In this document: positions 25,995 through 43,300 of the stretch, in pieces | Numbering within the stretch: the stretch's first letter is position 1 | Layout of the letters: the number at the start of each line of letters is the position of its first letter | Assembly (NCBI RefSeq): GCF_005943945.1 | Contig: NZ_CP040710.1 | Span: 1,375,001 to 1,439,000, forward strand | Reading direction: 5' to 3' | Source of the DNA: Aggregatimonas sangjinii | GTDB taxonomy: Bacteria > Bacteroidota > Bacteroidia > Flavobacteriales > Flavobacteriaceae | DNA length: 64,000 bases | Position numbers and translations under genes: made by a program | The notes under the pieces: generated by a model | What the model saw: only the letters and a program-made list of their open reading frames with translations | Databases searched by the model: none | Told to the model about the DNA's origin: nothing

Positions 25995-27902
25995 CTACAG
26001 TACATTGTCCATGATATGTTTGACCACTTCAGGGTTCAGTAGAGTGCTGGTATCCCCTAAATTTGAAGTGTCGTTTGAGGCTATTTTCCTTAAGATACGA
26101 CGCATGATTTTTCCGCTTCGGGTTTTGGGTAGACCGGAAACGAATTGAATCTTGTCCAGTTTGGCAATGGGTCCGATTTGCTCCGTGATCTGCTGGTTGA
26201 TTTCCTTCCGTAAATTTTCCCTGTCCCGACTTTCACCCGTTTCCTTTAAGATGATATAGCCGTAAAGGGCATTTCCCTTAATGTCATGCGGAAAACCGAC
26301 CACTGCCGACTCGGCGACGGCTGGATGTTCGTTGATGCTGTCTTCGATCGGAGCGGTACCTAAATTATGTCCAGAAACAATAATCACATCATCGACCCTT
26401 CCGGTAATCCTGTAATACCCGACGGCATCGCGTAAGGCACCATCGCCCGTAAAATACATGTCTTTATAGGCTGAAAAGTAGGTTTCCCGATAACGCTCAT
26501 GGTTTCCCCAAATGGTTCGTGCCATGGCCGGCCAAGGGAATTTAATACACAAACGACCATCGACCTGATTGCCCTTTATTTCATTTCCTTCCTCATCCAT
26601 TAAAGCGGGTTGCACCCCGATAAATGGCAATGTGGCATAGGTCGGGGTAGTGGGTGTTACGTAGGGGATGGGCGTAATCATCATGCCTCCGGTTTCCGTT
26701 TGCCACCAGGTATCTATGATCGGACTATTTTTCTTGCCCACATTGTTGTTGTACCAATGCCAAGCCTCCTCGTTGATGGGTTCCCCTACCGAACCGAGTA
26801 CTTTAAGACTGCTCAAATCGTGTTTTTCCACGAAATCCAAACTCTCTTTTGCCAAAGCGCGAATTGCGGTTGGCGCGGTATAAAATTGATTTACCTTATG
26901 CTTTTCGACCACTTCCCAAAAACGACCGAAATCAGGATAGGAGGGAACCCCCTCGAACATAAGGGTCGTGGCACCGTTAGCCAAGGGGCCGTAGACGATG
27001 TAGGAATGACCGGTAATCCAACCAATATCGGCGGTACACCAGTATACATCCTCTTCCTTATATTGAAAGGCATTTTTGAAGGTATAGGCGGTGTAGACCA
27101 TATAGCCCGCGCTAGTATGCACCATGCCCTTGGGTTTACCCGTAGAGCCGGAGGTATATAAAATAAACAACGGATCTTCGGCATCCATAACTTCTGCCAC
27201 ATTATCTGCATAGGCTTCATCGAGCAAGGGCTGAAGCCATTTATCGCGTCCTTCTTTCATTGCGATATTGGAATTGATACGTTTTGCAACAAGCACGTTC
27301 GCCACTCCCGGGCAATCTTCCAAGGCCTTGTCTACAATGCCCTTTAAATCGATGGTTTTGGCACCGCGGTACGACCCGTCGGAGGTAATGACCATTTTAC
27401 AATCCGAATCAATGATTCTAGTCGATAAGGCATTCGCCGAGAATCCGGCAAAGACCACGGAGTGAATCGCTCCAATACGCGCACAGGCTAAAACGGAGAT
27501 GGCCAGTTCGGGAATCATCGGTAAATAAATACAAACCCGATCACCTTTGCCGATGCCGTTTTCGAGGAGTACGTTTGCCATGCGACAGACCCTTTCATGT
27601 AGTTGACGATAGCTAATGTGTTCTGCTGTTTCATTGGGATCGTTCGGCTCGAATATGATGGCGGTTTTGGTACCACGTGTCGGCAAATGACGATCTAAAC
27701 AGTTTTCGGTAATATTGAGTTTCGCCCCTTCATACCATTTTACTTCCGGTTTGCTAAAATCCCAGCTAAGTACCTTGTCCCACTTTTTTCGCCACACAAA
27801 ATGCTCTTCGGCAATCTCTTCCCAGAACGCTTCAGGGTTTCGAACCGACTTTCGATAAACTTGAAAATATTCTTCTAAATGTTTGATATGGTAATTGCTC
27901 AT
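25995..27902 (-). CDS. acs: Acetyl-CoA synthetase (acetate–CoA ligase)
   Basis: 635 aa, normal for Acs. AMP-forming enzyme converting acetate, ATP and CoA to acetyl-CoA in the cytoplasm. Landmarks: VCIYLPMIPELAISVLACARIGA, the P-loop YTSGSTGKPKGMVHT near residue 250, DTWWQTETGG (about 400), YFTGDGA (about 485) and the C-terminal PKTRSGKIMRR with the acetylatable catalytic lysine. It is 129 bases downstream of the sodium:solute symporter on the same strand, so uptake and activation of acetate are probably linked. Confidence 0.97.
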   Translation of the reverse strand: MSNYHIKHLEEYFQVYRKSVRNPEAFWEEIAEEHFVWRKKWDKVLSWDFSKPEVKWYEGAKLNITENCLDRHLPTRGTKTAIIFEPNDPNETAEHISYRQLHERVCRMANVLLENGIGKGDRVCIYLPMIPELAISVLACARIGAIHSVVFAGFSANALSTRIIDSDCKMVITSDGSYRGAKTIDLKGIVDKALEDCPGVANVLVAKRINSNIAMKEGRDKWLQPLLDEAYADNVAEVMDAEDPLFILYTSGSTGKPKGMVHTSAGYMVYTAYTFKNAFQYKEEDVYWCTADIGWITGHSYIVYGPLANGATTLMFEGVPSYPDFGRFWEVVEKHKVNQFYTAPTAIRALAKESLDFVEKHDLSSLKVLGSVGEPINEEAWHWYNNNVGKKNSPIIDTWWQTETGGMMITPIPYVTPTTPTYATLPFIGVQPALMDEEGNEIKGNQVDGRLCIKFPWPAMARTIWGNHERYRETYFSAYKDMYFTGDGALRDAVGYYRITGRVDDVIIVSGHNLGTAPIEDSINEHPAVAESAVVGFPHDIKGNALYGYIILKETGESRDRENLRKEINQQITEQIGPIAKLDKIQFVSGLPKTRSGKIMRRILRKIASNDTSNLGDTSTLLNPEVVKHIMDNVL

Positions 27903-27928
27903 AGAATAAAATGGTTAAATAAAAGAAG

Positions 27929-27952
27929 TGCTTCGACAGGCTCAGCATGACA
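27929..27952. repeat. Dispersed intergenic repeat (REP-like element)
   Basis: The 24 bases between acs and the symporter read, on the minus strand, TGTCATGCTGAGCCTGTCGA followed by AGCA. To my knowledge this sequence is a common dispersed element between genes in many Bacteroidota. A diagnostic by-product is the spurious peptide MLSLSKH, which appears in the overlapping minus-strand frame here. I found one copy in this window. Confidence 0.7.
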
Positions 27953-28031
27953 TCGGTCTTCGTGATTGTCCGAAAGCGAACAGTTGGCTTTTCTTTAGTC
28001 CAGGATTTTTGTGGATTAAAAATACTAAAAA

Positions 28032-29744
28032 TTAATGTCCCGTAGCTTCCCCGGCACCACTCGGAATACGAATGTCTTCCACTATATCCTGAACATTCTG
28101 CGGTGGTGGAGGGGTGAACTGCATCACCACGATGGCAACAATGAAATTCACGATCATGGCGACCGTTCCGAAGCCTTCGGGTGAAATGCCGAACCACCAG
28201 TCTTTTGCAAGTCCGGCTACGGCCTCCTTGCCACCATCGAAAATTCCGAATTTGAATTTAAGCATGTAAAACAGCATCAATACAATTCCGACGACCATGC
28301 CGGCGATCGCTCCTTCTTTGTTCATTTTCTTATAGAAAATACCTAGGACAATGGCAGGAAAAAAGGATGCTGCCGCCAGACCAAAGGCCAAGGCGACAAC
28401 CGCCGCTACGAAGCCCGGTGGGTCAATACCAAAATAGCCCGCGATAACGACGGCTACCGTAGCGGCGCCTCTGGCGGCCCAAAGTTCCCCTTTCTCGGAG
28501 ATATCCGGCTTGAGTACCTTCTTGATCAGATCATGAGAAATCGATGAAGAGATGACCAACAACAGGCCAGCAGCCGTTGAAAGTGCAGCGGCCAAACTAC
28601 CAGCGGCTACCAAGGCGATGACCCATGCGGGGAGATTGGCTATTTCGGGGTTGGCCAATACCATGATTTCTCGATCAACGGTCAACTCATTCAACTTGGC
28701 ATCCGCAACATATTGAATCTTACCGTCGCCGTTCTTATCGTCAAAAGCAATCAATTCTGTCTTTTCCCAAGTTGAAAACCATTTGGGCATATCGGCATAA
28801 GGCTGATTACTGACCGTATTGATCATGTTCGTCCGTGCAAATACCGCCACGGCAGGCGCAGTAGTGTATAAGATGGCGATGAGCAATAAGGCCCATCCCG
28901 CGGACTTCCTGGCATCTTTCACCCTTTTTACCGTGAAAAACCTGACGATGACGTGGGGCAGACCGGCGGTACCGACCATAAGGGCCAAGGTAATGGCAAA
29001 AATATCGGTCATCGATTTGGAACCGTCGGTATATTCATTGAAACCAAGTTCGGTCGAGAGTCCGTCTAACTTATCCAATAGAAAAGTTCCGGAACCGTCG
29101 TTCAGCGTAGAACCCATACCAATTTGTGGAATGGGATTTCCTGTCATTTGAATCGAGATAAAGATTGCGGGTACCATAAAGGCGAAAATCAAAATGCAAT
29201 ACTGGGCAACCTGGGTATAGGTGATGCCTTTCATTCCACCAAGTACGGCATAAAATAGAACGATGATCATTCCGATAATCACTCCAGTGTTGATGTCGAC
29301 CTCCAAAAAACGAGAAAAGACCAATCCTACACCGCGCATTTGACCCGCAACATAGGTAAAAGAGACCAACAAAGCGCAAATTACGGCCACAATACGTGCC
29401 GTATTGGAGTAGTACCTATCCCCGATAAAGTCCGGAACTGTAAACTTCCCGAATTTACGCAGGTAGGGGGCAAGCAGCAGTGCCAAGAGCACATAGCCAC
29501 CGGTCCACCCCATGAGATAAACTGATCCGTCATATCCGGCAAAGGCAATAATCCCGGCCATGGAGATAAAGGATGCGGCGGACATCCAATCGGCTGCGGT
29601 CGCCATTCCGTTGGCAAGTGGGGAAACACCACCGCCCGCAACGTAGAACTCTTTTGTGGAACCCGCCCTGGACCAGATGGCAATGCCGATATAAAGGGCA
29701 AAGGTGATTCCGACTAAAATATAGGTCCAGGTTTGAACGGTCAT
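28032..29744 (-). CDS. Sodium:solute symporter, acetate (ActP)-like
   Basis: 570 aa, SSS family, about thirteen membrane segments. Recognisable are MATAADWMSAASFISMAGIIAFAGYDG (about residue 47), YVAGQMRGVGLVFSRFLE, GGMKGITYTQVAQYCILI and GTAGLPHVIVRFFTVK, as in cation/acetate symporters. A polar insertion of about 60 residues (NTVSNQPYADMPKWFSTWEKTELIAFDDKNGDG to LTVDREI) with a calcium-loop-like DDKNGDGK lies between two membrane segments. It follows the DUF4212 gene by 88 bases, the standard pairing, and precedes acs. Confidence 0.9.
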   Translation of the reverse strand: MTVQTWTYILVGITFALYIGIAIWSRAGSTKEFYVAGGGVSPLANGMATAADWMSAASFISMAGIIAFAGYDGSVYLMGWTGGYVLLALLLAPYLRKFGKFTVPDFIGDRYYSNTARIVAVICALLVSFTYVAGQMRGVGLVFSRFLEVDINTGVIIGMIIVLFYAVLGGMKGITYTQVAQYCILIFAFMVPAIFISIQMTGNPIPQIGMGSTLNDGSGTFLLDKLDGLSTELGFNEYTDGSKSMTDIFAITLALMVGTAGLPHVIVRFFTVKRVKDARKSAGWALLLIAILYTTAPAVAVFARTNMINTVSNQPYADMPKWFSTWEKTELIAFDDKNGDGKIQYVADAKLNELTVDREIMVLANPEIANLPAWVIALVAAGSLAAALSTAAGLLLVISSSISHDLIKKVLKPDISEKGELWAARGAATVAVVIAGYFGIDPPGFVAAVVALAFGLAAASFFPAIVLGIFYKKMNKEGAIAGMVVGIVLMLFYMLKFKFGIFDGGKEAVAGLAKDWWFGISPEGFGTVAMIVNFIVAIVVMQFTPPPPQNVQDIVEDIRIPSGAGEATGH

Positions 29745-30179: not shown

Positions 30180-31259
30180 TCAGGATGGTAGAAAGAGTAC
30201 CCCGCTCGAAGAATCCCTTTTGGCACCGGTAACGGATTTTAACACATTGATTTCTTGCTCCATGCGGAGAGCTCCCATCAGCGCAAAGACTACAGCTTCC
30301 TTGAATTCAATCAGTTCTTTTTTAGGAACGACTACTTTAGTATGCTCCCCCAGTTTTTCCTGAAGAACGTCGATAAGGAAATGGTTTAAGGCACCCCCAC
30401 CGGTCACCAATAGGGAGCTCCCGCTTTTCGCGGTGGCATTGAGTCTTATTTGCTGTGCTACTTTTTCGCAAATATGATGTATGGAGGTGTGCAAAAGATT
30501 TTCGATGCGGTCATCCGTACCATCTACTATGGGGGCTACTTCTTCAACAAACCATTCATATCCGATAGATTTAGGATGGGGCAGTAAATAGTATTTCAGT
30601 CCGTTTAAACTATCCAGCATCATTTGATTGATGCTACCGGACCGTGCCAATTCTCCCCCTTTATCATAAGCCAAATCGATTTTTCTGGTGATATAGTTCA
30701 AAATCATGTTCGCCAAACCAATGTCGTAGGCAATGCGCTTCCCTTTTTGTTCTAGGGATATATTGCTTATCCCTCCGAGATTCAAACAAAAATCATAGTT
30801 TCCGAAAAATAATTCATCCCCGATAGGAACTAAAGGAGCGCCTTGACCGCCTAAGGCCACGTCGTTCGTCCTAAAATCGCAAATAACCTTATGGCCGCTC
30901 TCATTGGCCAAATGTTGCCCGGAACCCATTTGAAAAGTGAGTCCGTTCTCAGGCTGATGATGGGTAGTATGCCCGTGACTTGCGATAAAATCGATGTCGA
31001 GCTTTTTCTCTAAAACAAACTGTTTTGCCTGTTGCCCTAACCAGGTGCCGTAGGTATTATGAAATTGCAACAACTCGTCCGCCTTCAGGTAGATGGAATC
31101 CTTTAATTCGCCTTGCATGGCCTCGGAATAGCCAACGCTCTTGGTTTCGATGATTTCAAAGGTCCATTGGTCCGTTCCTTTCGTAATATAACAATAACAG
31201 AGGTCAAGGCCATCTAAGGATGTTCCCGACATCAGACCTAAGATTTTGTATGTTTTCAT
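30180..31259 (-). CDS. anmK: Anhydro-N-acetylmuramic acid kinase
   Basis: 359 aa. Cytoplasmic enzyme that opens the 1,6-anhydro ring of anhydroMurNAc and phosphorylates it to MurNAc-6-phosphate. The N-terminal GLMSGTSLDGLDLCYC, DFIASHGHTTHHQP (about 91–104) and VICDFRTNDVALGGQGAPLVP are the AnmK signatures. LVTGGGALNHFLID is the C-terminal sugar-kinase fold motif. It is 33 bases downstream of the NagZ-like gene. The product is the substrate of MurQ, encoded about 6 kb away in the same cluster. Confidence 0.96.
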   Translation of the reverse strand: MKTYKILGLMSGTSLDGLDLCYCYITKGTDQWTFEIIETKSVGYSEAMQGELKDSIYLKADELLQFHNTYGTWLGQQAKQFVLEKKLDIDFIASHGHTTHHQPENGLTFQMGSGQHLANESGHKVICDFRTNDVALGGQGAPLVPIGDELFFGNYDFCLNLGGISNISLEQKGKRIAYDIGLANMILNYITRKIDLAYDKGGELARSGSINQMMLDSLNGLKYYLLPHPKSIGYEWFVEEVAPIVDGTDDRIENLLHTSIHHICEKVAQQIRLNATAKSGSSLLVTGGGALNHFLIDVLQEKLGEHTKVVVPKKELIEFKEAVVFALMGALRMEQEINVLKSVTGAKRDSSSGVLFLPS

Positions 31260-31292: not shown

Positions 31293-32906
31293 CTACGTTG
31301 TTTGCACTATAGATACAGCCAGCTTTCCACTGGCTTTGATTTTGCCCCTAAAATGATTTGCGGCGACCTCTTGGAACTCTGTAAAATTTTGATAGACGAC
31401 CACTACGGCAATAGCCTTTTCGATACTCAAATGATTTAAAACATATGGATTGCCAAAGAGATACAGCACCACCTTCCTCGTCTGTAATAATTCGTTTATC
31501 AAATCAATTTCTTTTTGGGGTATTCCGAAATTATTAGCTGGTTTTACCTGCGGAGGAAAGAGAGCCAAAAGCACATTTTCTTCATTTTTATCGAGCGTTT
31601 CACCTATCGCTTTACTAGTGAACTTTTTATACTCTTGAATTAAATTAAAAAATTGATTTTCAATAGTATATGAATTTTTAACCCCCGTAAAATTTAAACT
31701 AAAAAATTTGGAAATGGCCAAAGGGTCGCCTGTAAGCAACGTTAGGCTCCGACCCGCAATTTTTCGATTGAGCTGATGAGCCAAATTGGGTTTAGGCCGT
31801 GTATCTGCCTTACCCATAGCCAAGTTCGAATTTGTTGTCAAAGTCTGAAGAGCCCTTTCTTTTAGCCTCCAGAAACGTTCAAAGCTTTCATCGATTTGGT
31901 CAGTTGAAGCATTCTTGAGGATAGTTTCGATTCCCTCGGGAATGTTTTCGGCAAAACACAGTACATCATTTCCCGCATCGAAAGCGAGCCATTCCAAATC
32001 GCCCTTACCGGGATGGTTCTTAGAAACGGCGTGCATGTTCAAAGCGTCGGAGATGACTACGCCGTTGAAACCCATTTCATCCCTTAAAACTCCTTGGATG
32101 ATCTCTTTGGATATACTGGAAGAGTCCATTTTTCCTCGTGCCAAGGCCGGAACGGACAAATGCCCGACCATTACGGAATCAACGCCTTCCTCAATCAATT
32201 TTTGAAAAGGATATAATTCATTGGCCACTAACTCTTCTTTCGACTTATCGATCAAGGGCAGTGCCAAATGTGAATCCGTGGCGGTGTCTCCATGACCGGG
32301 AAAGTGTTTGATGCTCGTCAGTACTCCTTCGCTTTGTGTGCCTTTCACAAAAGCCAACGCTTTTTCGACGACATTCATTTTGTTTTCCCCAAAAGAACGA
32401 TACCCGATTACAGGGTTGTTCGGATTGTTGTTTATGTCAATACATGGGGCCAGGTTCCAATGAATGCCCGCGGCTTTGCAGTCTTTGGCGATTTGCTTCC
32501 CTACCTCATAAATAAGTTGGTCATTGCCCTGAAGTGCACCCAAGGTAATGGCATAGGGATATTGTGGCGTGTTTTCGATACGCATGGCCAGACCCCATTC
32601 GGCATCGATGGCGATCAATAATGGGTATTTGGCCGCGGATTGATATCTTTCGATGAGTTTGCGCAGCGTTTCTAGGCTATTCTTATTATAGACCACTTCC
32701 TTTTTGCCTTCGTAATTCGTAGCGGCACTAGCTTTACTATGAAAAAAGCAGAGGGAGCCAATGTCATGTTTTTGAATTAGTTTTTCAAGCTTTTGAATGT
32801 CCTCTTCGGTATCGTTTATAAAGGCCGCAGGCATAAAGAATTGTCCTACCTTTTCGGATAACGGTAAGCTATTTTTAGCGATTTCGTAAGCGGGTATCTT
32901 TTTCAT
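31293..32906 (-). CDS. GH3 β-N-acetylglucosaminidase (NagZ-like) with C-terminal extension
   Basis: 537 aa. The N-terminal 340 residues are a GH3 catalytic domain: LLIAIDAEWGLAMRI, GYRSFGENKM, KHFPGHGDTATDSHLALPLI carrying the NagZ-type His/Asp acid-base loop, and GVVISDALNMHAV with the nucleophile Asp. It lacks a signal peptide, so it should work in the cytoplasm on imported GlcNAc-anhydroMurNAc. About 180 extra C-terminal residues (from LAHQLNRKIAGRSLTLL) resemble the second α/β domain of larger GH3 enzymes, unlike the single-domain NagZ of E. coli. It begins one base after the importer gene stop and precedes anmK. Confidence 0.88.
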   Translation of the reverse strand: MKKIPAYEIAKNSLPLSEKVGQFFMPAAFINDTEEDIQKLEKLIQKHDIGSLCFFHSKASAATNYEGKKEVVYNKNSLETLRKLIERYQSAAKYPLLIAIDAEWGLAMRIENTPQYPYAITLGALQGNDQLIYEVGKQIAKDCKAAGIHWNLAPCIDINNNPNNPVIGYRSFGENKMNVVEKALAFVKGTQSEGVLTSIKHFPGHGDTATDSHLALPLIDKSKEELVANELYPFQKLIEEGVDSVMVGHLSVPALARGKMDSSSISKEIIQGVLRDEMGFNGVVISDALNMHAVSKNHPGKGDLEWLAFDAGNDVLCFAENIPEGIETILKNASTDQIDESFERFWRLKERALQTLTTNSNLAMGKADTRPKPNLAHQLNRKIAGRSLTLLTGDPLAISKFFSLNFTGVKNSYTIENQFFNLIQEYKKFTSKAIGETLDKNEENVLLALFPPQVKPANNFGIPQKEIDLINELLQTRKVVLYLFGNPYVLNHLSIEKAIAVVVVYQNFTEFQEVAANHFRGKIKASGKLAVSIVQTT

Positions 32907-32907
32907 C

Positions 32908-34170
32908 TTAGGCTTTTGCTTTACCGAAATTTGGTGGATACTTGATATATCGCAACAGGACGAAGGCCGGGAGCGCTGCGATGACTACCCAAATAAAGAA
33001 ACCGTCATAGCCCAGCCACTCTTGCATAAATCCGCTGATCAGACCGGGAAGCATCATGCCCAAGGCCATAAAACCGGTGGCGAGAGCATAATGCGAGGTT
33101 TTGGAATTGCCTTCGGCAACGTAAATCAGGTACACCATAAAACCGGCAATGCCGAAACCATAGCCGAATTGCTCTACGATGACGGTCCCGGTTACGGCGT
33201 AGACATTGGTGGAGCCTGTAATCGCGAGCAGTGCATACAGTGCATTCGGTGCATTTAGTGAAATGAGCATGGGTAGCATCCATTTTTTCAGGCCCTGCCG
33301 GGAAATCAAGATTCCACCCAAAATGCCACCAATGGTCAAAAAGATAACCCCGATAGTTCCGTAAATCGTCCCCACCTCGGAAGTACTGTAGCCCAAACCG
33401 CCCGCAGCCGCGGGGTCGAGTAAAAAAGGGGAAGCCATTTTCACCAATTGCGATTCGCCCAGTCTGAAGAACAGGATAAAGGCCAGCGCCATGCCGATAC
33501 CCGGTTTCTTGAAGAACGAAGCGAATACTTCCAAAAAGCCCTTTGGCTTCTCAAGTACGATAGCCGCTGAACTTTCGAATTTAGGGGTCACGAAAAAATT
33601 GGACACGGTCAACAATAACATCAGAAAGGCGGCACAAATCATGGTATACGCCCAGGCTTTTGTATTGTCGCCGTAGTGATTTTCCAAAAAGCCCGCTAAG
33701 ACCACCAGTAGCCCTTGTCCCGTGACGTTTGCCAATTTATAGAACACACTGCGCATGCCTACAAAAAAGGATTGCCTGTCCTCCGTAAGGCCTATCATAT
33801 AGTACCCGTCAATAGCAATGTCGTTCGTAGCGGAGGCGAAGGCCACCATCCAAAAACAGGCCAAACTGGTGATAAAAAAGATGTTGGTCGGCAAACTGAG
33901 GCCAATTGCCAATAGCGCCACCGATGCCAAAAACTGCATCCCTAAAAACCAATTGCGTTTGGTGCTTTTTAAGTCCACAAACGGACTCCAAAGCGGTTTT
34001 ATGACCCATGGGATGTATAAAAAACTGGTGTAGAGCCCGATATCGGCATTGCTGACGCCTAATTTTTTGTACATGATTACTGAAACAGTAACGACCAACG
34101 CATAGGGTAGGCCCTGAGCAAAATAAAGAGTTGGCACCCACGCCCATGCCCATTTGTTTTTTTGAATCAT
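32908..34170 (-). CDS. AmpG-like muropeptide/MFS permease
   Basis: 420 aa, twelve predicted membrane segments. The start WAWAWVPTLYFAQGLPYALVVTVSVIMYKKLG, then FLYIPWVIKPLWSPFVDLK and ATNDIAIDGYYM, follow the AmpG/PAT family pattern. AmpG imports GlcNAc-anhydroMurNAc(-peptide) from the periplasm. The call is strengthened by the neighbours, NagZ-like GH3 (one base away) and AnmK, which act on exactly that substrate. Direct substrate evidence is absent. Confidence 0.82.
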   Translation of the reverse strand: MIQKNKWAWAWVPTLYFAQGLPYALVVTVSVIMYKKLGVSNADIGLYTSFLYIPWVIKPLWSPFVDLKSTKRNWFLGMQFLASVALLAIGLSLPTNIFFITSLACFWMVAFASATNDIAIDGYYMIGLTEDRQSFFVGMRSVFYKLANVTGQGLLVVLAGFLENHYGDNTKAWAYTMICAAFLMLLLTVSNFFVTPKFESSAAIVLEKPKGFLEVFASFFKKPGIGMALAFILFFRLGESQLVKMASPFLLDPAAAGGLGYSTSEVGTIYGTIGVIFLTIGGILGGILISRQGLKKWMLPMLISLNAPNALYALLAITGSTNVYAVTGTVIVEQFGYGFGIAGFMVYLIYVAEGNSKTSHYALATGFMALGMMLPGLISGFMQEWLGYDGFFIWVVIAALPAFVLLRYIKYPPNFGKAKA

Positions 34171-34389: not shown

Positions 34390-36318
34390 TTAATCGAACT
34401 TGTGCCGAACAAAGGCCTCCATGGCGGCGTAGTCCGAAAGTCCGAGGTCGTTGTATCTTTTAGCGGTATTCCGATTTCGTTCCTCGGCGCGCATCCAGAA
34501 TTCCCTTGTATCGTCCCCTTGAAACATTACACCGTCTTTTTGTGATTGATGGGCAAAAATCGCATGGCGCTTTCGCAACACTTGGCCAGGACTCATCGGA
34601 ACCGCCATCTCAATTTCATTGATATCCCATTCATGCCAAGCACCTCTGTAAAGCCAAAGCCAACAGTCTTTTGTAAAAGGTTCCAATTTCAGCTTCTTCA
34701 TAGCTTCAAAAACGGCATCGAGACAGATACGGTGTGTCCCATGCGGATCTGCCAAGTCCCCAGCGGCGAATATCTGATGTGGTTTAATGTCTTGAATGAT
34801 ATTGACCATGATATCAATGTCGTCTTTGGATAGGTTGTTCTTTTTTATGGTGCCCGTTTCGTAAAAGGGTAAATCTAAGAAATGAACGTTACTATCCGCT
34901 AGACCTAGATAACGGGTAGCGGCATAGGATTCCCCGCGACGTATATGCCCTTTGAGCCTTCGTACCTCCGGCGAATCGAAACTACTTTCTTTTCGCGCTA
35001 CTATGGAATCGATAATGGACTGCGCTTCCTTTGAAGGGGAAATTCTCTTGGCAATTTCGGCATATTTGGTCGCGTCAGCATCTGAAACTGCAATATTTCC
35101 GGAAGTCTGGTAAGCGACATGTACCTCATGGCCTTGTTCGATCAACCGATCAAAAGTGCCGCCCATTGAAATGACGTCGTCATCCGGGTGCGGACTGAAG
35201 ATAATAACTCTCTTTTTAGCGGGTTCCGCTCTTTCCGGTCGATTGGTGTCATCGGCGTTCGGTTTTCCTCCCGGCCAACCGGTGATGGTGTGTTGAAGGC
35301 GATTGAACATTTTGATGTTCAGGTCGTAGGAATCGTGAATCATCAACAAATCGGCCATACCATTGTCGTTGTAATCCTTATCGGTTAAACTCAGAATGGT
35401 CTTGCCCGTTTTTGTGCATAGCCAAACGATGGCCTTGGCCGTTAGTTCTTCCGTCCATTCACAGGGGCCTACCAACCAAGGTGTCTTGTTTCTGGTCAAT
35501 TCGCTACCCGCACCCGTGTCCAAGACAAACGTACAGTTCTTATGGTTTTGGAGGTATGTCGCCGGAACATGTGAGGATATCTCTCCTTCGACTGTTTTTT
35601 TAATGATATCCGCCTTGTTTTGTCCCCAACCGAGTAGTACAATTCGCTTTGCGCTTCTGACCGTCGCGATACCCATGGTTATGGCTTTTCTGGGAACATT
35701 GTCGATGCCGAGAAAAGCAGGCGCCGCATCTACTCTGGTAATATGGTCCAAAGTGATAACGCGGGTTCCGGAATTATAATGGGAGCCTGGTTCGTTAAAG
35801 CCAATATGCCCCGTTCGTCCGATTCCCAGAAGTTGGAAATCCAGCCCTCCGTGATCTTTGATTTTTCGCTCATAGGACAAACAGTATTCCACCACAGTAG
35901 TACTTGGGGTCTTTCCATCGGGAATATGTATATTTTCTGGATGGATGTTTACATGATTGAACAAATGCTCGTGCATAAAATAATGGTAGCTCTGGGTGTT
36001 TTCCTTGTCCATCGGCAAGTATTCATCCAGATTGAAGGTAACGACATTCTCGAAGCTAAGTCCTTCTTCCTGGTGCATACGAACCAGTTCTTCGTACACG
36101 CGAATAGGCGAGGAACCCGTTGCCAAGCCCAGAACACACCTTTTGTTCGACAGCTGTTTTCTTTTGATGAGGTTGGCCATCTCTTGGGCTACTTCAATAG
36201 AGGCATCGTTTGAATTTTCGAATATAACGTTATGGATTTTTTCAAAACGGGTTTCTTCAAATTGCCCTACAGGCTTGTAACGGATATCGGTTTTTACACG
36301 TGCTGCCATTGTGGTCAT
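34390..36318 (-). CDS. NagB-like isomerase/deaminase fused to PIG-L (LmbE) deacetylase
   Basis: 642 aa. Residues 25–310 are a glucosamine-6-phosphate deaminase (NagB) domain: GLATGSSPIRVYEEL (64–78), NLDEYLP with D98 at the general-base position, and GIGRTGHIGFNEPGS (165–179). In E. coli NagB the last motif reads NDGHIAFNEP with catalytic Asp141; here that position is T169, while H171 and E176 are kept. Residues 368–640 are a PIG-L/LmbE de-N-acetylase domain with the zinc motif SPHPDDDVISMGG (375–387) and DPHGTHR near residue 548. This two-domain form is known in Bacteroidota. The combination could deacetylate and deaminate GlcNAc-6-P, the MurQ product, replacing NagA. Deaminase activity is uncertain given T169. 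Confidence 0.85.
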   Translation of the reverse strand: MTTMAARVKTDIRYKPVGQFEETRFEKIHNVIFENSNDASIEVAQEMANLIKRKQLSNKRCVLGLATGSSPIRVYEELVRMHQEEGLSFENVVTFNLDEYLPMDKENTQSYHYFMHEHLFNHVNIHPENIHIPDGKTPSTTVVEYCLSYERKIKDHGGLDFQLLGIGRTGHIGFNEPGSHYNSGTRVITLDHITRVDAAPAFLGIDNVPRKAITMGIATVRSAKRIVLLGWGQNKADIIKKTVEGEISSHVPATYLQNHKNCTFVLDTGAGSELTRNKTPWLVGPCEWTEELTAKAIVWLCTKTGKTILSLTDKDYNDNGMADLLMIHDSYDLNIKMFNRLQHTITGWPGGKPNADDTNRPERAEPAKKRVIIFSPHPDDDVISMGGTFDRLIEQGHEVHVAYQTSGNIAVSDADATKYAEIAKRISPSKEAQSIIDSIVARKESSFDSPEVRRLKGHIRRGESYAATRYLGLADSNVHFLDLPFYETGTIKKNNLSKDDIDIMVNIIQDIKPHQIFAAGDLADPHGTHRICLDAVFEAMKKLKLEPFTKDCWLWLYRGAWHEWDINEIEMAVPMSPGQVLRKRHAIFAHQSQKDGVMFQGDDTREFWMRAEERNRNTAKRYNDLGLSDYAAMEAFVRHKFD

Positions 36319-36509: not shown

Positions 36510-37259
36510 ATGCTAAAGGAAGAGCGGCAACAGACCATATTGAGCGAAGTAGAATTGCACAACCGCATTCTATTGACCGATATTGCGGAGACGCTGGATG
36601 TTTCTGTCGATACCATTCGGAGAGATGTAAAGGAGTTGGATGCCGAGCAGAAACTTCGCAAAGTGCATGGAGGAGCCATTTCTTTGGGCTTTACGACCAG
36701 TAGTGCCCGCAATACGAACATTTACGCGCTAGAGGAGAAAACCAAAATTGCCGAAAAGGCATTGACGTTGTTAAAGGACGGCGCGGTAATCTTCGTTGAT
36801 GGGGGTACTACGTGTTTGGAATTGGCCCGACTGATTCCGATTGATATGAAACTAACTTGTTTTACCTTAAGCTTGGCCGTGGCCATGGAGTTGTGCTCAA
36901 AACCGAACGTTACCGTAATATTCATTGGAGGACAGATTTCAAAGGATGCGCAGCTATCCATTGGTGCCAATGCAATTCACAACCTTTCTGAAATCAAGGT
37001 GGATTATAGCTTTATTGGAACCGGGTACGTCGATTCGCAATACGGATTGACGGAATTCGATTGGGATATCGTTCAATTAAAAAAAGCGGTCTTGAAAGCA
37101 GCTAAAAAAACAGTGCTTTTATGTATTTCCGAAAAATTGAATTCGCAGCATCGCTATAAAACATGCGATATCAACTCGATAAATACGATGATCACCGAAC
37201 TGGAACCCGATAATAAGCTCTTAGATCTTTTTAGGAATCACGATATCCGTTTGCTGTAA
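36510..37259 (+). CDS. DeoR/GlpR-family transcriptional regulator
   Basis: 249 aa. The N-terminal winged helix is MLKEERQQTILSEVELHNRILLTDIAETLDVSVDTIRRDVKELDAEQKLRKVHGGA, matching DeoR family signatures. The C-terminal DeoRC sugar-phosphate sensor (about 75–235) includes DGAVIFVDGGTTCLELARLI and IGTGYVDSQYGLTEFDWD. These repressors usually respond to a phosphorylated sugar. Divergent to nagB–PIG-L and just before murQ, it most likely senses an amino-sugar phosphate such as MurNAc-6-P or GlcNAc-6-P. Confidence 0.93.
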   Translation: MLKEERQQTILSEVELHNRILLTDIAETLDVSVDTIRRDVKELDAEQKLRKVHGGAISLGFTTSSARNTNIYALEEKTKIAEKALTLLKDGAVIFVDGGTTCLELARLIPIDMKLTCFTLSLAVAMELCSKPNVTVIFIGGQISKDAQLSIGANAIHNLSEIKVDYSFIGTGYVDSQYGLTEFDWDIVQLKKAVLKAAKKTVLLCISEKLNSQHRYKTCDINSINTMITELEPDNKLLDLFRNHDIRLL

Positions 37260-37322: not shown

Positions 37323-38132
37323 ATGAATTATATTAAAATAACCGAAACACCTTCCAACCACGATAATTTAGAGCAGCTCGACACCGCTTCGATTCTTCAA
37401 AAGATGAACGAAGAAGATCAAAAGGTGGCAGCGGCCGTCGCTGAGGTCATTCCACAGATTACCAAATTGGTCGATACCTTGACCGAGCGATTCGCAAGGG
37501 GCGGTCGATTGTTCTATATCGGCGCAGGCACTAGTGGCCGCTTGGGTATTCTGGATGCTTCCGAAATACCACCAACTTTCGGCATGCCGCACGAAAGGGT
37601 AGTGGGTTTGATTGCTGGGGGAGATACGGCCATTCGAAAGGCGGTTGAAAATGCTGAGGACGATACCCAACAAGCCTGGCCTGATTTGATGGCGCATGAT
37701 ATCAACAGCAATGATGTAGTAGTAGGTATCGCTGCATCGGGAACCACGCCTTATGTTTTGGGCGGTATTGCGGCCGCAAAGGAAAAAGGAATACTTACAG
37801 CGGGTATTACGAACAATCCGGGATCTCCTTTGGCCAAGGCGGCCGATATACCCATAGAAATAAATGTTGGCCCCGAGTTCGTTACGGGAAGTACCCGTAT
37901 GAAAAGCGGTACTTCGCAAAAATTGGCCTTGAATATGATTACGACCGCCCTGATGATTCGTATTGGCCGAGTTAAAGGCAACAAAATGGTGAACATGCAA
38001 ATGACCAATACCAAACTTGTTGATCGGGGAACTCGGTATATCATGGAGGGTTTGGGTGTGGACTATTCCGTTGCCGAAGCTTTGCTAAAAAAACATGGAT
38101 CGGTAAAAAAGGCTTTGGATGCCGAACGCTAG
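37323..38132 (+). CDS. murQ: N-acetylmuramic acid 6-phosphate etherase
   Basis: 269 aa, SIS-domain lyase that splits the lactyl ether of MurNAc-6-phosphate to GlcNAc-6-phosphate and lactate. The signature FYIGAGTSGRLGILDASEIPPTFG is near residue 63. GIAASGTTPYVLGGI and the MurQ/GCKR signature region VTGSTRMKSGTSQKLALNMITT (about 187–208) follow. It is somewhat shorter than E. coli MurQ (298 aa) at the C-terminus, as usual in Bacteroidota. It lies 63 bases after the DeoR-type regulator and is co-oriented with it. It links AnmK to the NagB–PIG-L fusion. Confidence 0.97.
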   Translation: MNYIKITETPSNHDNLEQLDTASILQKMNEEDQKVAAAVAEVIPQITKLVDTLTERFARGGRLFYIGAGTSGRLGILDASEIPPTFGMPHERVVGLIAGGDTAIRKAVENAEDDTQQAWPDLMAHDINSNDVVVGIAASGTTPYVLGGIAAAKEKGILTAGITNNPGSPLAKAADIPIEINVGPEFVTGSTRMKSGTSQKLALNMITTALMIRIGRVKGNKMVNMQMTNTKLVDRGTRYIMEGLGVDYSVAEALLKKHGSVKKALDAER

Positions 38133-38536
38133 TCTTTTTGAATTGCAGCGACTTCGGTAGCAGTAACCGTCTCGTCCGACTGATTCCCCCAGGTGTTCCT
38201 AATGTAGTTCATCACATCGGCTACCTCCTGTTCGCTTAGGTTTACGGCCTTCATCTCCTTATCGTATACGATTCCATTGACCGTAATTTTCCCCTCTAAA
38301 CCATATTTTACGGCTCGAATACTTTCGATTCGATTATTCATGAGGTAATCCGAGCCCGCTAAAGGGGGAATGCGCTTTCCCTTTCCTGTACCTTTCTTGG
38401 AATGACAAACAGCACAATTTCGTTTATAAACGATTGCCCCTCTTTCGATACTTGTGGGTATTTCGTTTTCTTGGGCAAATAGTTGGGTTGTTGATAAGAG
38501 GCAGAGTAGAAAGAGTAGCACGTGGTTCATCAACAT
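38129..38536 (-). CDS. Small exported c-type cytochrome (second of tandem pair)
   Basis: 135 aa with a signal peptide (to about residue 21, LFAQ). The mature part is a class I cytochrome c: haem motif CAVCH near residue 41, then GTGKGKRIPPLAGSDYLM and the likely axial Met in YDKEMKAV. The C-terminal helix is QEVADVMNYIRNTWGN. It is clearly paralogous to the neighbouring cytochrome over its whole length. Its ATG overlaps the stop of that gene (TAATG) and its end overlaps murQ by four bases tail to tail. Probable periplasmic electron carrier. Confidence 0.92.
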   Translation of the reverse strand: MLMNHVLLFLLCLLSTTQLFAQENEIPTSIERGAIVYKRNCAVCHSKKGTGKGKRIPPLAGSDYLMNNRIESIRAVKYGLEGKITVNGIVYDKEMKAVNLSEQEVADVMNYIRNTWGNQSDETVTATEVAAIQKD

Positions 38537-38943
38537 TATTTTTCTGCGATTGCGGCCACTTCATCCACAGTGACTATAGTATCGGAACGATTTTCAAAGG
38601 AATTCAAAATGTAGTTCATAACATCCGCAATCTCCTCATCTTCAAGACCCATGGGCGCCATAACTCCATCATAGGTTTCACCGTTGACCACTAATTCACC
38701 TTGCTGTCCGAATTTGATGCCACGAATACTGGCCTCCCTATTTTCCCTGAGGTAATCGGAATCGGCCAAAGGCGGGAAAACACCGGCTACACCTTCGCCC
38801 TGGGTCAGGTGGCAGGTTACGCAAAAATCGGTATAGATTTCACTACCGCGTGCTATGCTTTGCGCTACATCCGGTTCTTGCGAAAAGCATGTCGCAACAC
38901 TTGCGACTAGGAATAAGTATTTGAGCGAAAACCTTTTTACCAT
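38536..38943 (-). CDS. Small exported c-type cytochrome (first of tandem pair)
   Basis: 135 aa with a signal peptide (ending near CFSQ, residue 22). Haem motif CVTCH (about residue 42), then GEGVAGVFPPLADSDYL, likely axial Met in DGVMAPMGL, and helix EEIADVMNYILNSFEN. It shares the same plan and the same end (DTIVTVDEVAAIAEK versus ETVTATEVAAIQKD) with the downstream copy, so the pair arose by duplication. It lies 142 bases after the PQQ-type sugar dehydrogenase on the same strand; an electron-acceptor role for that enzyme is plausible. Confidence 0.92.
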   Translation of the reverse strand: MVKRFSLKYLFLVASVATCFSQEPDVAQSIARGSEIYTDFCVTCHLTQGEGVAGVFPPLADSDYLRENREASIRGIKFGQQGELVVNGETYDGVMAPMGLEDEEIADVMNYILNSFENRSDTIVTVDEVAAIAEK

Positions 38944-39085
38944 AATTTAGGGATGTCAAATCAAGTTAAAAATACTGCCTTCCTCTTACAACAGGAAAAT
39001 ACGGATTGTAATCAATCCTTCCTATCGGCGACAGCCAGGCTCCTAATTTCTACGCCCATTACTATTTTTTTCTTCATTAATCAGT

Positions 39086-40213
39086 TCAGTCCTTTGGTAG
39101 CAATTTATAGATTCCCTTTCCCTCAACTGCTACATAAATAAGGCCGTCAGGGCCTTCTTTCACATCGCGTACCCTTCCCAGATCTTCCATTAACTTTTCA
39201 CGAAAAACCACGGTGTTGCCGTCCATTTCCAAACGTTCCAGATATTGAAAGGCAAGTGAGCCCACCAAAAGGCTTCCTTTCCAATCGCCATAATTGTCCG
39301 ATGTTATAAACGCCATACCGCTCGGAGCGATACTGGGTACCCAATAGTGAATGGGTTGTTCCATACCTTCCATTTCCGTTTTGTCGGTGATTTCGGTACC
39401 GGAATAATTGATGCCGTAGGTGACCAAAGGCCAGCCGTAATTGGCCCCTTTTTTTATAATATTGATTTCGTCACCTCCACGGGGTCCGTGCTCGTGGTCC
39501 CAAATATCCCCGGTCTCAGGGTGTGCTACCAAACCTTGCGGATTTCGATGGCCATAACTGTAAATGGCGGTTTTGGCACCCTCGGTACCAACAAATGGGT
39601 TGTCTTCGGGTATACGCCCATCATCGTACAAGCGGTAAATCTTACCGCCATCCCTTTTAATATCTTGGGGGTTTTCATCCCGTGCCCCACGTTCACCAAT
39701 GGAAAAATAGAGATAGCCTTCATCGTCGAATTGAATGCGCGAACCAAAATGTTGTCCCTTTGTAGTATTAGGTGAAGCTTTGTAGAGTAATTGATTGTTG
39801 ATCAGTGAATTGTCATTAAATTTTGCCCGTAACAGAGCCGTATGCCCGCCTTTTCCCTCGCCCTCTGGAGAGGAGTAGGTAAGATAGATCCAACCATTGT
39901 TTTCGTAGTCGGGATGCAGGGCGATATCCAGCAGTCCACCTTGGCCTCTGGCATACACTTCAGGAACATTTCCAACAATGGTTTTCGTGTCATCCTTAAA
40001 ATGAATCAATTCACCTGATTTTTCTGTAATGAGCATGCTCCCGTCGGGTAAAAACGCCATACCCCATGGAATTTGCATTTCATCGATCAGTAATTCCGCG
40101 GTAAACGGTACTTCTGTAGCGGTACTTATCTGATTTTCAGTTTTTTGAGCACAAGAAATATTGAAAATCATGGCGGATACACAAATTATTAACACACTTT
40201 TTTTCATAATCAT
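39086..40213 (-). CDS. PQQ-dependent sugar dehydrogenase (soluble GDH / YliI type)
   Basis: 375 aa. An export signal at residues 1–22 ends in a possible lipobox (NISC). The six-bladed propeller of the glucose/sorbosone dehydrogenase family follows: MQIPWGMAFLPDGSMLITEKSGEL, RGQGGLLDIALHPDYENNGWIYLTYS (containing the active-site region), GHRNPQGLVAHPETGDIWDHEHGPRGGDEIN, and IAPSGMAFITSD. Such enzymes oxidise aldoses to lactones in the periplasm with PQQ. No PQQ biosynthesis genes are in the window. The two cytochromes downstream could accept the electrons. Sugar specificity is unknown. Confidence 0.9.
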   Translation of the reverse strand: MIMKKSVLIICVSAMIFNISCAQKTENQISTATEVPFTAELLIDEMQIPWGMAFLPDGSMLITEKSGELIHFKDDTKTIVGNVPEVYARGQGGLLDIALHPDYENNGWIYLTYSSPEGEGKGGHTALLRAKFNDNSLINNQLLYKASPNTTKGQHFGSRIQFDDEGYLYFSIGERGARDENPQDIKRDGGKIYRLYDDGRIPEDNPFVGTEGAKTAIYSYGHRNPQGLVAHPETGDIWDHEHGPRGGDEINIIKKGANYGWPLVTYGINYSGTEITDKTEMEGMEQPIHYWVPSIAPSGMAFITSDNYGDWKGSLLVGSLAFQYLERLEMDGNTVVFREKLMEDLGRVRDVKEGPDGLIYVAVEGKGIYKLLPKD

Positions 40214-40339: not shown

Positions 40340-43300
40340 ATGCTCCCAAAAAGACAGAGGCATATATTTTATGCCGCACTACTTTTGACCTTATCCGCTG
40401 TGTGTACAACAGCTGTGGCCAATTCCAGTGTTATCGCGCTACTTTCAGAGGTGATTTCTCCTTCGAAGATTGAAGCGACGGACACCCTTGAGAACAATAG
40501 TCTAAAGGCGCCCACCACTACCGCAAACGAACTTTTGAAGAGCAGCGCTACTGCAAGCGCTCCGTTTTTCATGACCATCATTCAAGGTGCGGATGAAGAG
40601 GTGAATTGTGCCGATAATGGTCTTACCATCGCAAGATTTAATCTTTGTGGCGATTTCGATGACCGAGTTATTTCTCTTTCCGGGTCGTACAGTAACGTAA
40701 GCTGGTACCAATTGGGTGGGGCTTGTTCACCTGATGTGAACGATGACTGCCCGAACACAACAGTTTCTTGTTATGGTTCACCAGTTAGCACGGGACCTAC
40801 TTTTAGTTTAGATGCCAGTGCGATATCTTCCTCAAATGGAGCGGAATTCAGGGTCGTTGCGGATGGCCAACAGTTTTTCTTCAAGGTAAAGAAAAGTAAT
40901 ATTACACAGAGTGTGGTAACGGAAGACTATATCTGTGGGGTGCCCGGACGTATTCAGGTGACCAATCTATCCAGTGCCTATGAGTTCAGTATCGATTCTG
41001 GTAGTGGTTTCGGTCCTTGGCAAGGGCCTATATTCAATAACTTGCTTGACGGAACCTATATCGTAAAAGCGCGGTTGCAGAATACACCGGATGCTTGTGA
41101 ATACCCTTATGAACCCATTGTCATTAACGCCATCGATCTTGCGATTGAAGTAGATTTTGTCGATGCCGATTGTGTTGGTGAAACAGGTTCGATTACCGTA
41201 ACCCCAACAGCGGGAATCGGTCCTTATAAATACACACTTCTAGATGACACCGGTTCCGCGCAGGAGTTTACACCTTTTATACCTGATAACCCCTACACCT
41301 TTTCGGCCGTAGGTTTTGGCACGTATACGGTACAGGTAGAAACCCAGGAATGTACAGGGGATGTATTGAATGGAATTGATCCGCCCAGACAGAGTTTGGA
41401 TACCGGCGGAAACCCGATTACGATAGGTGCCGGTGTAGCAGCTCTCACGGCCTCGGCTGAACCCAACAACAGTTTTAGTACTGCTTGCGGTATCAATACC
41501 GTCGATATTACGGTATATACTTCCGGTGGAACAGCGCCCTATACCTATATTGTAAATGGTGTAGGACCTTCCAGTCCTTCATATACGGATTCAAGAGTGG
41601 AGACCATTACTACCCCAGGCACCTATGAATTTTTAATCACCGATGCCAACGGCTGTACGATTACCGCTTCGGCCAATGTGGAAGAGCTTACCCCGCCGGA
41701 TATTACGGTCGCTGGAGTCGATGGTACTTGTACCAACGGAGGCTCTCGTTTAGAATTTACCATTGTTGACGCAAAGGGATTCGACTTGGAGTATCGAGCA
41801 GATCCCGGAAACGCATGGAGCAACAACCCGGTCTTATCTGTTCCCCCCAATGTAACGTATAACAATATTCAAGTTCAATATTCCTCTGGTGCGTTCACTT
41901 GTATCATGGACCTTCCCGATTCAATTACAGTAAACGGAGTGAACGGTATTACCGGAACGGCAGTAAAAAACTCGGATGTGTCCTGTAATCTTGGTGGCGG
42001 CACCACGGGAGGGGAAATCGAATTCCAAGGCCCATTTACCGGGGGTTCCGGAACAGGGTACCAATACAGTATCGATGGCGTTACCTTTTCTACCAATTTA
42101 ACCTATTCGGGCTTGGCCCAAGGAACCTATACTCCCGTTATCATTGACGATAGCGGTTGTAGGAGGGATTTGACAGCGATACAGATTTTCGATGTAGATC
42201 CGCCAACGGATATTGCCTTTGCCCAAAACGATATCAATTGTGCGGCGGGTACTTCTGAAGTAATCTTGACGGTTACCGGCTCAGCAGCGATTGCAACGTA
42301 CGAAATTATAAATCCTACAGCTTTTAATAACGGTGGCAACAACACCTTTGTCGGACTAAATACGGGTACTACTTATGAATTTCGTGCTACCGATGTCAAT
42401 GGATGTAGTATTGTAGAGAATTTTACACCAATTGTAACCAGTAGCATTCGAGCACGGGTTCAAGCAGGTGGTGATTTAAGGGTTTGTACGGGTGCCAGCG
42501 ATGGTACGGGAACATTCCTGATAGACGGTTTCGCGAATAATTATACCTATAACATCAACGGAGGCCCGGAAAGTGCACCACAAAACGATGCGCAAGTAGT
42601 ACTTCCCCCTTCGGGAGCAGGTACTTACACCATAACGATTACCGATGCCGATACCGGCTGTACCGATACGGCTTCTTTCGATATCATCGAACCTGCCAGT
42701 CCCATTAACTTAACGGGTACGGTCAGGGATATGTCATGTGCCAATAACAATAGAGGTCGCGTAATAGCAGATGCAACAGGTGGTTGGAACGGATATCTAT
42801 ATACCCTTACGTATCCTGCTGCAAGTGGCGTGCCTCCAGTGACAAAAACCGGACGTACTTTCAATAATTTGACCCACGAAGGAAATTATGAGCTTTCGGT
42901 GGTCGATTCTGAAGGATGTACCGACACTTTTAATTTTTCGCTTACGGCCATAGATGCACCAGCAATTGCTTTAGACGATGCCGCTTCGGATTTTTGTTAC
43001 GTTCCCGGTACAGGCGCGACCATAGGAGTGACCTCTACCGCCGGTTCGGCCTTGGTTGCCACGCACCAATATCGTATTAACGGCGGAAGTTTACAGGCAA
43101 GCCCTGTATTTACAGGATTGACTCCTGGCAATTATACCATTGAGGTGGTCGATGGAAATAACTGTAGTGCCCCATTAAATGTTACAGTTAGACCCCAACT
43201 TCGGGTCAATACGAGTATCGATACTGAAATCCCATGTGGAGGTGCCCCGGGACAGATCCGCGTTCAGGTGAGCGGTGGATATTTGGGCAGTCCCGATTCC

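Follow-up and report, generated by a model that had tools for sequence, protein, structure and literature searches.

A NagB–PIG-L fusion in a muropeptide recycling cluster

The window, a stretch of 64,000 nucleotides from the genome of Aggregatimonas sangjinii, carries a gene whose product joins a glucosamine-6-phosphate deaminase (NagB) domain to a PIG-L/LmbE domain (Table 1). Such a fusion had been predicted from the sequence and is confirmed here as a real, single open reading frame, with Pfam and NCBIfam matches in agreement. PF01182 covers residues 37 to 261 (79.8 bits, cut-off 27) and PF02585 residues 373 to 539 (68.4 bits, cut-off 28.2), while the nagB model TIGR00502 scores 260.3 bits against a cut-off of 236.9. 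The full-length model NF002557 spans residues 7 to 641 with 1051.1 bits (cut-off 384), so the architecture is already catalogued. That family, NF002557/PRK02122, shares the whole architecture with the window fusion; it was catalogued by similarity, and its name, "glucosamine-6-phosphate deaminase-like protein," gives no deacetylase function.

Table 1. Features of the fusion gene and its surroundings, in window coordinates
Feature	Position	Strand	Basis or remark
NagB–PIG-L fusion, 642 aa	34390..36318	-	NF002557/PRK02122 family; ATG start
NagB half, residues 30-275, proposed GlcN-6-P deaminase	35494..36231	-	TIGR00502 260.3 bits; 2bkv_B Foldseek match
Codon of T169 (E. coli Asp141 position)	35812..35814	-	
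Middle region, residues 276-368, linking both halves	35215..35493	-	
PIG-L/LmbE half, residues 369-642, proposed GlcNAc-6-P deacetylase	34393..35214	-	PF02585 68.4 bits
HPDDD, residues 377-381	35176..35190	-	Metal ligands H377 and D380, general base D379
H526-G-T-H529	34732..34743	-	H529 = third metal ligand
AmpG-like muropeptide transporter	32908..34170	-	TIGR00901 182.1 bits, below cut-off 350; Pfam MFS_1 passes
NagZ-like GH3 beta-N-acetylhexosaminidase	31293..32906	-	PF00933 245.9 bits; NF003740 154.1, below 207
AnmK, anhydro-MurNAc kinase	30180..31259	-	NF007144 504.5 bits, cut-off 436
VC_2705-type sodium/solute symporter, possible acetate handling	28032..29744	-	TIGR03648 875.4 bits
Acetate-CoA ligase, possible salvage of freed acetate	25995..27902	-	TIGR02188 954.7 bits
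DeoR-family regulator, divergent from fusion	36510..37259	+	PF00455 and PF08220 pass
MurQ, MurNAc-6-P etherase, source of GlcNAc-6-P	37323..38132	+	TIGR00274 310.3 bits, cut-off 302

Close relatives of the locus are numerous. Of 577 confirmed stretches from named genomes, the top 80, chiefly of Maribacter and other marine Flavobacteriaceae, show 74 to 91% identity in their best segment. The window protein has a mean identity of 57% to the other 130 rows of our alignment of fusions. In its middle region (residues 276 to 368), the TITGWPGGKP stretch is absent from the more distant rows of a 14-row alignment. An AlphaFold2 model built with 81 sequences has a mean pLDDT of 90.9 and a pTM of 0.85.

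The AmpG-like, NagZ-like and AnmK genes lie downstream of the fusion, and the DeoR regulator and MurQ genes are divergent from it. The set of recycling genes originally described around the fusion is thus borne out, with AnmK and MurQ passing curated cut-offs and NagZ and AmpG recognizable by their GH3 and MFS Pfam models but below their NCBIfam cut-offs. The arrangement is widely shared among close relatives: in 65 loci longer than 21 kb, drawn from the best 80 of the 577 stretches, DeoR and MurQ lie near the fusion in 61, NagZ in 60, and AmpG and AnmK in 58. Across a phylum-wide sample, MurQ, AnmK, NagZ or AmpG was found within the flank of the fusion in 21 of 130 loci. Six of the 23 families are represented among these, the NagZ match of family f31 and a number of the AnmK matches being weak; the flanks searched at the other 109 loci held none of these genes. 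By our estimate, chance would bring single genes of a genome of 2 to 7 Mb close to the fusion in clearly fewer loci than 21.

Active site of the NagB half

Aligned to E. coli NagB (1cd5, with E. coli numbers obtained by counting), D98, H171 and E176 of the fusion fall on D72, H143 and E148, and T169 falls on D141, just as had been read from the sequence. Our residue counts refer to 131 rows, namely, the window protein and 130 fusions found in 98 genomes, with genome G246 left out. All 131 rows retain E176, while H171 is present in 129 and D98 in 126. The fold agrees as well, since the model matches B. subtilis NagB (2bkv_B), the closest solved NagB, with a TM score of 0.97 by target length, an rmsd of 1.0 and 42% identity in Foldseek. 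The equivalents of D72, H143, E148 and K208 are thus shared with the known enzymes (B. subtilis 2bkv; E. coli 1cd5/1dea), whereas the window fusion differs from E. coli NagB in its Thr at Asp141, in having no conserved equivalent of Arg172 and in the attached deacetylase-like domain.

The Thr had been taken as a possible sign of altered chemistry, and its conservation among long-form proteins was proposed as a check. Thr does occupy site 169 in 79 of the 131 fusions, but the remainder have Asn (25), Ser (25) or Val (2), so that 129 rows have one of T, N and S, and 2bkv itself has Asn there. Asp141 is therefore not taken as defining NagB, the variation offers no argument for new chemistry, and we reject that idea; judged from the sequences compared, the Thr is a tolerated variant. 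Genomes of genus g2 (G206, G174, G021, G025, G170, G222, G202 and G245) each hold three to four full-length fusion copies, which include both T-type and N-type at site 169.

A further difference, not mentioned in the original reading, concerns the place of Arg172, which we take to be a phosphate ligand in E. coli NagB: it is not conserved (S75/K14/A9/R8/G7/P6 across the 131 rows). In the window protein it is occupied by Pro200, in a local alignment that is uncertain by one residue. The available excerpt of a paper on Giardia NagB places Asp141 and Glu148 of the E. coli enzyme among the residues that bind the allosteric activator (PMC4281351), and in an excerpt of a second paper, on the E. coli enzyme, Glu148 contacts the catalytic His143 (PMC4008608).

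Motifs and fold of the PIG-L half

The zinc motif HPDDD, originally described as intact, is found at residues 377 to 381, and a PHGTH motif follows at residues 525 to 529. H377 and D380 are present in all 131 rows, D379 in 127, H526 in 128 and H529 in 129; by analogy with MshB, we take H526 to be the likely catalytic His. LmbE enzymes follow a rule of HXDD plus a distant His, with two His and the second Asp binding the metal and the first Asp as general base, as stated in excerpts of PMC4101496. The fusion fits this rule through H377, D379, D380 and H529, with a spacer of 149 against the 97 to 148 quoted in the same excerpts. Those excerpts also describe the LmbE-like enzymes then known as acting on substrates with a GlcNAc core, with a mycothiol-conjugate enzyme as an exception.

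Among solved structures, the best PIG-L-type matches found by Foldseek are the diacetylchitobiose deacetylases of Pyrococcus. The match to 8bgo_C (E 4.5e-9, TM 0.59 by target length, rmsd 5.2), together with PF02585, identifies an LmbE fold, so that the model superposes on both a NagB and a PIG-L-type enzyme, as a structural check of the original prediction was to establish. The deacetylase of Pyrococcus chitonophagus (8bgo) has a matching fold, the start of the HXDD motif and a GlcNAc substrate, but unlike the fusion it is a separate protein, and its substrate is an unphosphorylated disaccharide.

The genome lacks a recognizable nagA and a second nagB

The A. sangjinii genome is a single contig of 4,723,614 bases, 99.97% complete. 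With all 35 candidates scored, the best match to the nagA model TIGR00221 reached 28.2 bits, where 225.65 are required, a score attained in 7 of 14 control genomes; TIGR00221 was also not among the 10 NCBIfam families matching the fusion. No second nagB was found in the genome, where the only other gene with PF01182 encodes 6-phosphogluconolactonase (pgl; TIGR01198, 202.4 bits) and lies beside zwf. The highest score in a search for NagB-II, 141 bits against a cut-off of 430, fell on a frame of 616 aa that is probably GlmS, judging by length and family; this search says little, because no control genome passed its cut-off either. The absence of nagA first noticed in the cluster thus holds for the genome at the curated cut-off, and the pairing that was to count against the original prediction, a normal nagA and a separate canonical nagB elsewhere, was searched for genome-wide with neither gene recognized. 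Given these two negative results, the proposal of a one-polypeptide deacetylase/deaminase is well supported.

Two further PIG-L genes occur in the genome, one of them within an 846-aa frame that has a signal-peptide-like start. The other is a single copy of the bacillithiol deacetylase gene, BshB1 (299.9 bits). BshB1 belongs to the LmbE family, as does the PIG-L half, but serves a different pathway, and the fusion scores only 33.3 of the 182.5 bits of its model. As another LmbE deacetylase in the genome, BshB1 could act on GlcNAc-6-P.

Fusion, nagA and MurQ across Bacteroidota

We surveyed 247 Bacteroidota genomes with curated cut-offs, scoring up to seven nagA candidates per genome, and found the fusion in 100, nagA in 34 and MurQ in 172. 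Of the fusion genomes, 99 were examined, including that of the window; G246, in which the fusion is split over contigs, was set aside. nagA is absent at the cut-off from 81 of the 99 and present in 18, and a strong MurQ match (E ≤ 4.2e-88, some just under the curated cut-off) is found in 98, the exception being G210. Weak nagA-like matches of about 168 to 224 bits, in G107, G139, G143, G158, G182, G203 and G224, are counted here as absent; if those of about 178 to 224 bits are included, 24 of the 99 fusion genomes have nagA, and one of the six added, G182, is the sampled genome most closely related to that of the window.

A rule that the fusion excludes nagA is broken by the 18 genomes that have both. 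Among the 21 nagA loci of these genomes, 15 have neither a fusion nor another NagB-like gene within about 5 kb, 4 adjoin another NagB-like gene and 1 is about 5 kb from a fusion; in the remaining one (G068), nagA precedes the fusion in the same orientation, at a distance of 50 bp. The genes surrounding one lone nagA (L290) gave no clue to its role. Apparently shortened fusions were considered as natural deletions and rejected, as the 371-aa frames of G099 and the pieces of G246 stop at contig ends.

Some observations in Flavobacterium johnsoniae bear on the same steps. In the excerpted text of PMC5127042, the authors predict a separate NagA, report that deletion of a gene named nagB in the chitin locus was without effect, mention three further nagB-like genes and describe a failed attempt to express NagB in E. 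coli. In PMC9007349, NagA took part in four of the five bacteria covered (panels 3A-3D), while Echinicola vietnamensis is the subject of panel 3E.

Fusions with one damaged half

Five of the 131 fusions have lost the D72 equivalent (D98 replaced by Y, N, A or S) while keeping the whole PIG-L motif. They belong to two separate clades (G230 and G238; G215, G167 and G207), and in each of the five genomes a separate gene passes the nagB cut-off whereas none passes that of nagA. A separate nagB is found in 5 of 5 such genomes versus 12 of the 94 other fusion genomes (p = 8.7e-5, relatedness ignored), based on a search repeated in full for 79 fusion genomes and G219, with a separate nagB of between 237 and 252 bits possible in G096 alone. 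We regard the half-dead fusions as the strongest evidence that the PIG-L half stands in for NagA.

The converse loss, of part of the PIG-L site with an intact NagB half, is seen in six rows. Four are second copies in one genus, and a fifth is likewise an additional copy, in the nagA-bearing genome G214. The last is the only fusion copy of G146, which carries H526N in a genome without nagA and is a true exception. Rates of evolution suggest that dead PIG-L halves evolve faster in one genus (z of −1.6 to −2.1), but for NagB halves the picture is not clear: those of the half-dead fusions of family f37 (z of −0.2 to 0.5) show no visible acceleration, and those of family f11 have z values of 1.4 and 1.9.

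A separate PIG-L gene lies next door to two of the six PIG-L-dead fusions but also near two intact ones. In one genus, such genes occur at positions 6970-7863 of locus L154, 7091-7981 of L167, 4050-4883 of L160 and 2814-3713 of L164; those of L154 and L167 have signal-peptide-like starts and look exported, and two of the accompanying fusion copies are without the PIG-L general base. Because these genes are found near intact fusions as well and two of them look exported, we draw no conclusion on replacement PIG-L genes.

Standalone nagB, larger fusions and an unfused pair

Among the 41 genomes of the sample that have a standalone nagB over the cut-off (G246 counted), a NagB-associated PIG-L partner is present in 27 of 28 without nagA versus 5 of 13 with nagA (p = 1e-4), or 26 of 27 versus 6 of 14 if G224 is recounted as nagA-bearing. 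With genomes that have the fusion described above (type A) left out, the partner is present in 9 of 10 versus 5 of 13 (p = 0.029). The Fisher tests ignore relatedness, and since the genomes are related, these p values overstate the association. The partners in the 27 genomes comprise 18 type A fusions, 8 fusions of a second type (type B) and 1 neighboring PIG-L frame, with none in G148, and all five partners in nagA-bearing genomes are of type B.

Type B is a larger NagB–PIG-L fusion, with frames of 768 to 811 codons in the 14 of 15 matches that were read (L309 to L322, from G074, G078, G082, G120, G156 twice, G176, G224, G236, G051, G062, G070, G216 and G039, the frame in G039 being cut by a contig end). 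In all 14, Val or Ile stands where E. coli NagB has Glu148. The D72 and H143 equivalents, an HHDD motif and the last His are retained; the H526 equivalent is lost. The window protein is not of this type, having E176 and HPDD in contrast to the hydrophobic residue and HHDD. In seven of the eight type B genomes without nagA, the gene is near murQ (five, within about 4.4 kb) or a canonical nagB (two, within 2.5 kb), whereas in none of the five nagA-bearing genomes does it share a contig with either (p = 0.0047). In G051, G062 and G039 the contig stops a few kb from the type B gene, and a lack of proximity carries less weight there.

The two domains also occur unfused. In G219, which has no nagA, an intact PIG-L frame adjoins nagB, the two being separate, overlapping frames. 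This pair could be a frameshifted fusion, as the PIG-L motif precedes any Met in its frame.

A candidate replacement for NagA

We consider it likely that the fusion is a bifunctional GlcNAc-6-P deacetylase/GlcN-6-P deaminase working in place of NagA, as originally proposed; the genome has no nagA or other nagB at the cut-offs, and relatives show compensating losses. MurQ would yield GlcNAc-6-P, from which the C-terminal PIG-L/LmbE half would strip the acetate with the help of one metal ion, the job of NagA, before the N-terminal NagB half deaminates and isomerizes the GlcN-6-P to fructose-6-P and ammonia. Two consecutive steps would thereby be joined in one chain. We infer the substrate of the PIG-L half, catalysis by both halves and any channeling. 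NagA, a member of the amidohydrolase superfamily, has the reaction and pathway place proposed for the fusion but comes from an unrelated family, so the fusion would be a non-orthologous replacement and probably takes the place of the missing enzyme in many Bacteroidota. Counting against this reading are the 18 of 99 fusion genomes with nagA, in one of which it adjoins the fusion, the exception of G146, the six rows with a damaged PIG-L site, the nonconserved Arg172 place, the lack of visible acceleration in the NagB halves of family f37, the F. johnsoniae observations, the possible action of BshB1 on GlcNAc-6-P and the 109 loci whose flanks held no recycling gene.

The chances are about even for a broader proposal, that PIG-L bound to NagB is a general NagA replacement in Bacteroidota, occurring in four interchangeable forms (both halves active; a dead NagB half with a separate nagB; type B; and unfused neighbors), with the fusion possibly passing GlcN-6-P between sites. 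The NagB half of type B may only bind sugar phosphate.

Of the alternatives, the one that fares best, which we hold to be unlikely, is that the NagB half is an ordinary deaminase while the PIG-L half acts on another GlcNAc compound, such as free GlcNAc, a disaccharide or a conjugate, and an unrecognized enzyme deacetylates GlcNAc-6-P. The nearest solved PIG-L folds being diacetylchitobiose deacetylases, the nagA gene adjoining the fusion in G068 and the presence of BshB1 in the genome are all compatible with it, as is the lack of a sugar 6-phosphate among the LmbE substrates named in the excerpts of PMC4101496. Against it, the PIG-L partner tracks the absence of nagA among genomes with standalone nagB, and fusions with a dead NagB half retain PIG-L in genomes without nagA.

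That only the PIG-L half is catalytic, with the NagB half serving as a sensor or regulator that binds GlcN-6-P or GlcNAc-6-P, seems to us highly improbable. T169 and the variable Arg172 place would suit such a role, and the Glu148 equivalent is gone from all 14 type B relatives read, while the half-dead NagB halves of family f37 are not visibly relaxed. However, the near-universal D98, H171 and E176 are found in the window protein as well, B. subtilis NagB also lacks Asp at the 141 site, and the genome would be left without a recognized GlcN-6-P deaminase. The original suggestion of a deacetylase with a sugar-phosphate-binding domain accordingly fits the five NagB-dead fusions, and perhaps type B, but not the window protein. 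Action on another amino-sugar phosphate, e.g., GalNAc-6-P, is likewise highly improbable. In its favor, the two to four fusion copies of some genomes suggest more than one substrate or inducer; against it, the fusion of the window sits with MurQ, whose product is GlcNAc-6-P, and its NagB half passes the nagB model but fails that for galactosamine-6-phosphate isomerase (111.9 of 271 bits).

The fusion family is known; its function and the compensating forms described here, as read from sequence comparison, were not met in the literature searched, and none of the listed matches from a search of titles and abstracts of open-licence papers tested a NagB–PIG-L fusion. If the bifunctional reading is true, a gap is filled in the GlcNAc and cell wall recycling pathway of many Bacteroidota, with 81 of 99 fusion genomes lacking nagA, and a family annotated merely as deaminase-like becomes a testable bifunctional enzyme. 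To our knowledge, no sugar 6-phosphate is yet known as a substrate of PIG-L/LmbE enzymes, and GlcNAc-6-P would then be the first. The half-dead relatives give clear predictions on the single domains.

Beyond the recycling genes, acetate released by the fusion could be salvaged by the acetate-CoA ligase and the VC_2705-type symporter (25995-29744); among the 65 long loci of relatives, the symporter lies near the cluster in 39 and the ligase in 37. On the other side, adjoining MurQ (38129-40213), are two small cytochrome c-like genes and a gene resembling PQQ-type glucose/sorbosone dehydrogenases, which is below the cut-off of its model and is present in 60 of the 65 loci. Farther on (40340-48976), the window encodes a repetitive protein of 2878 aa, SprB-like in appearance, whose C-terminal end we take to resemble a T9SS-type C-terminal region.
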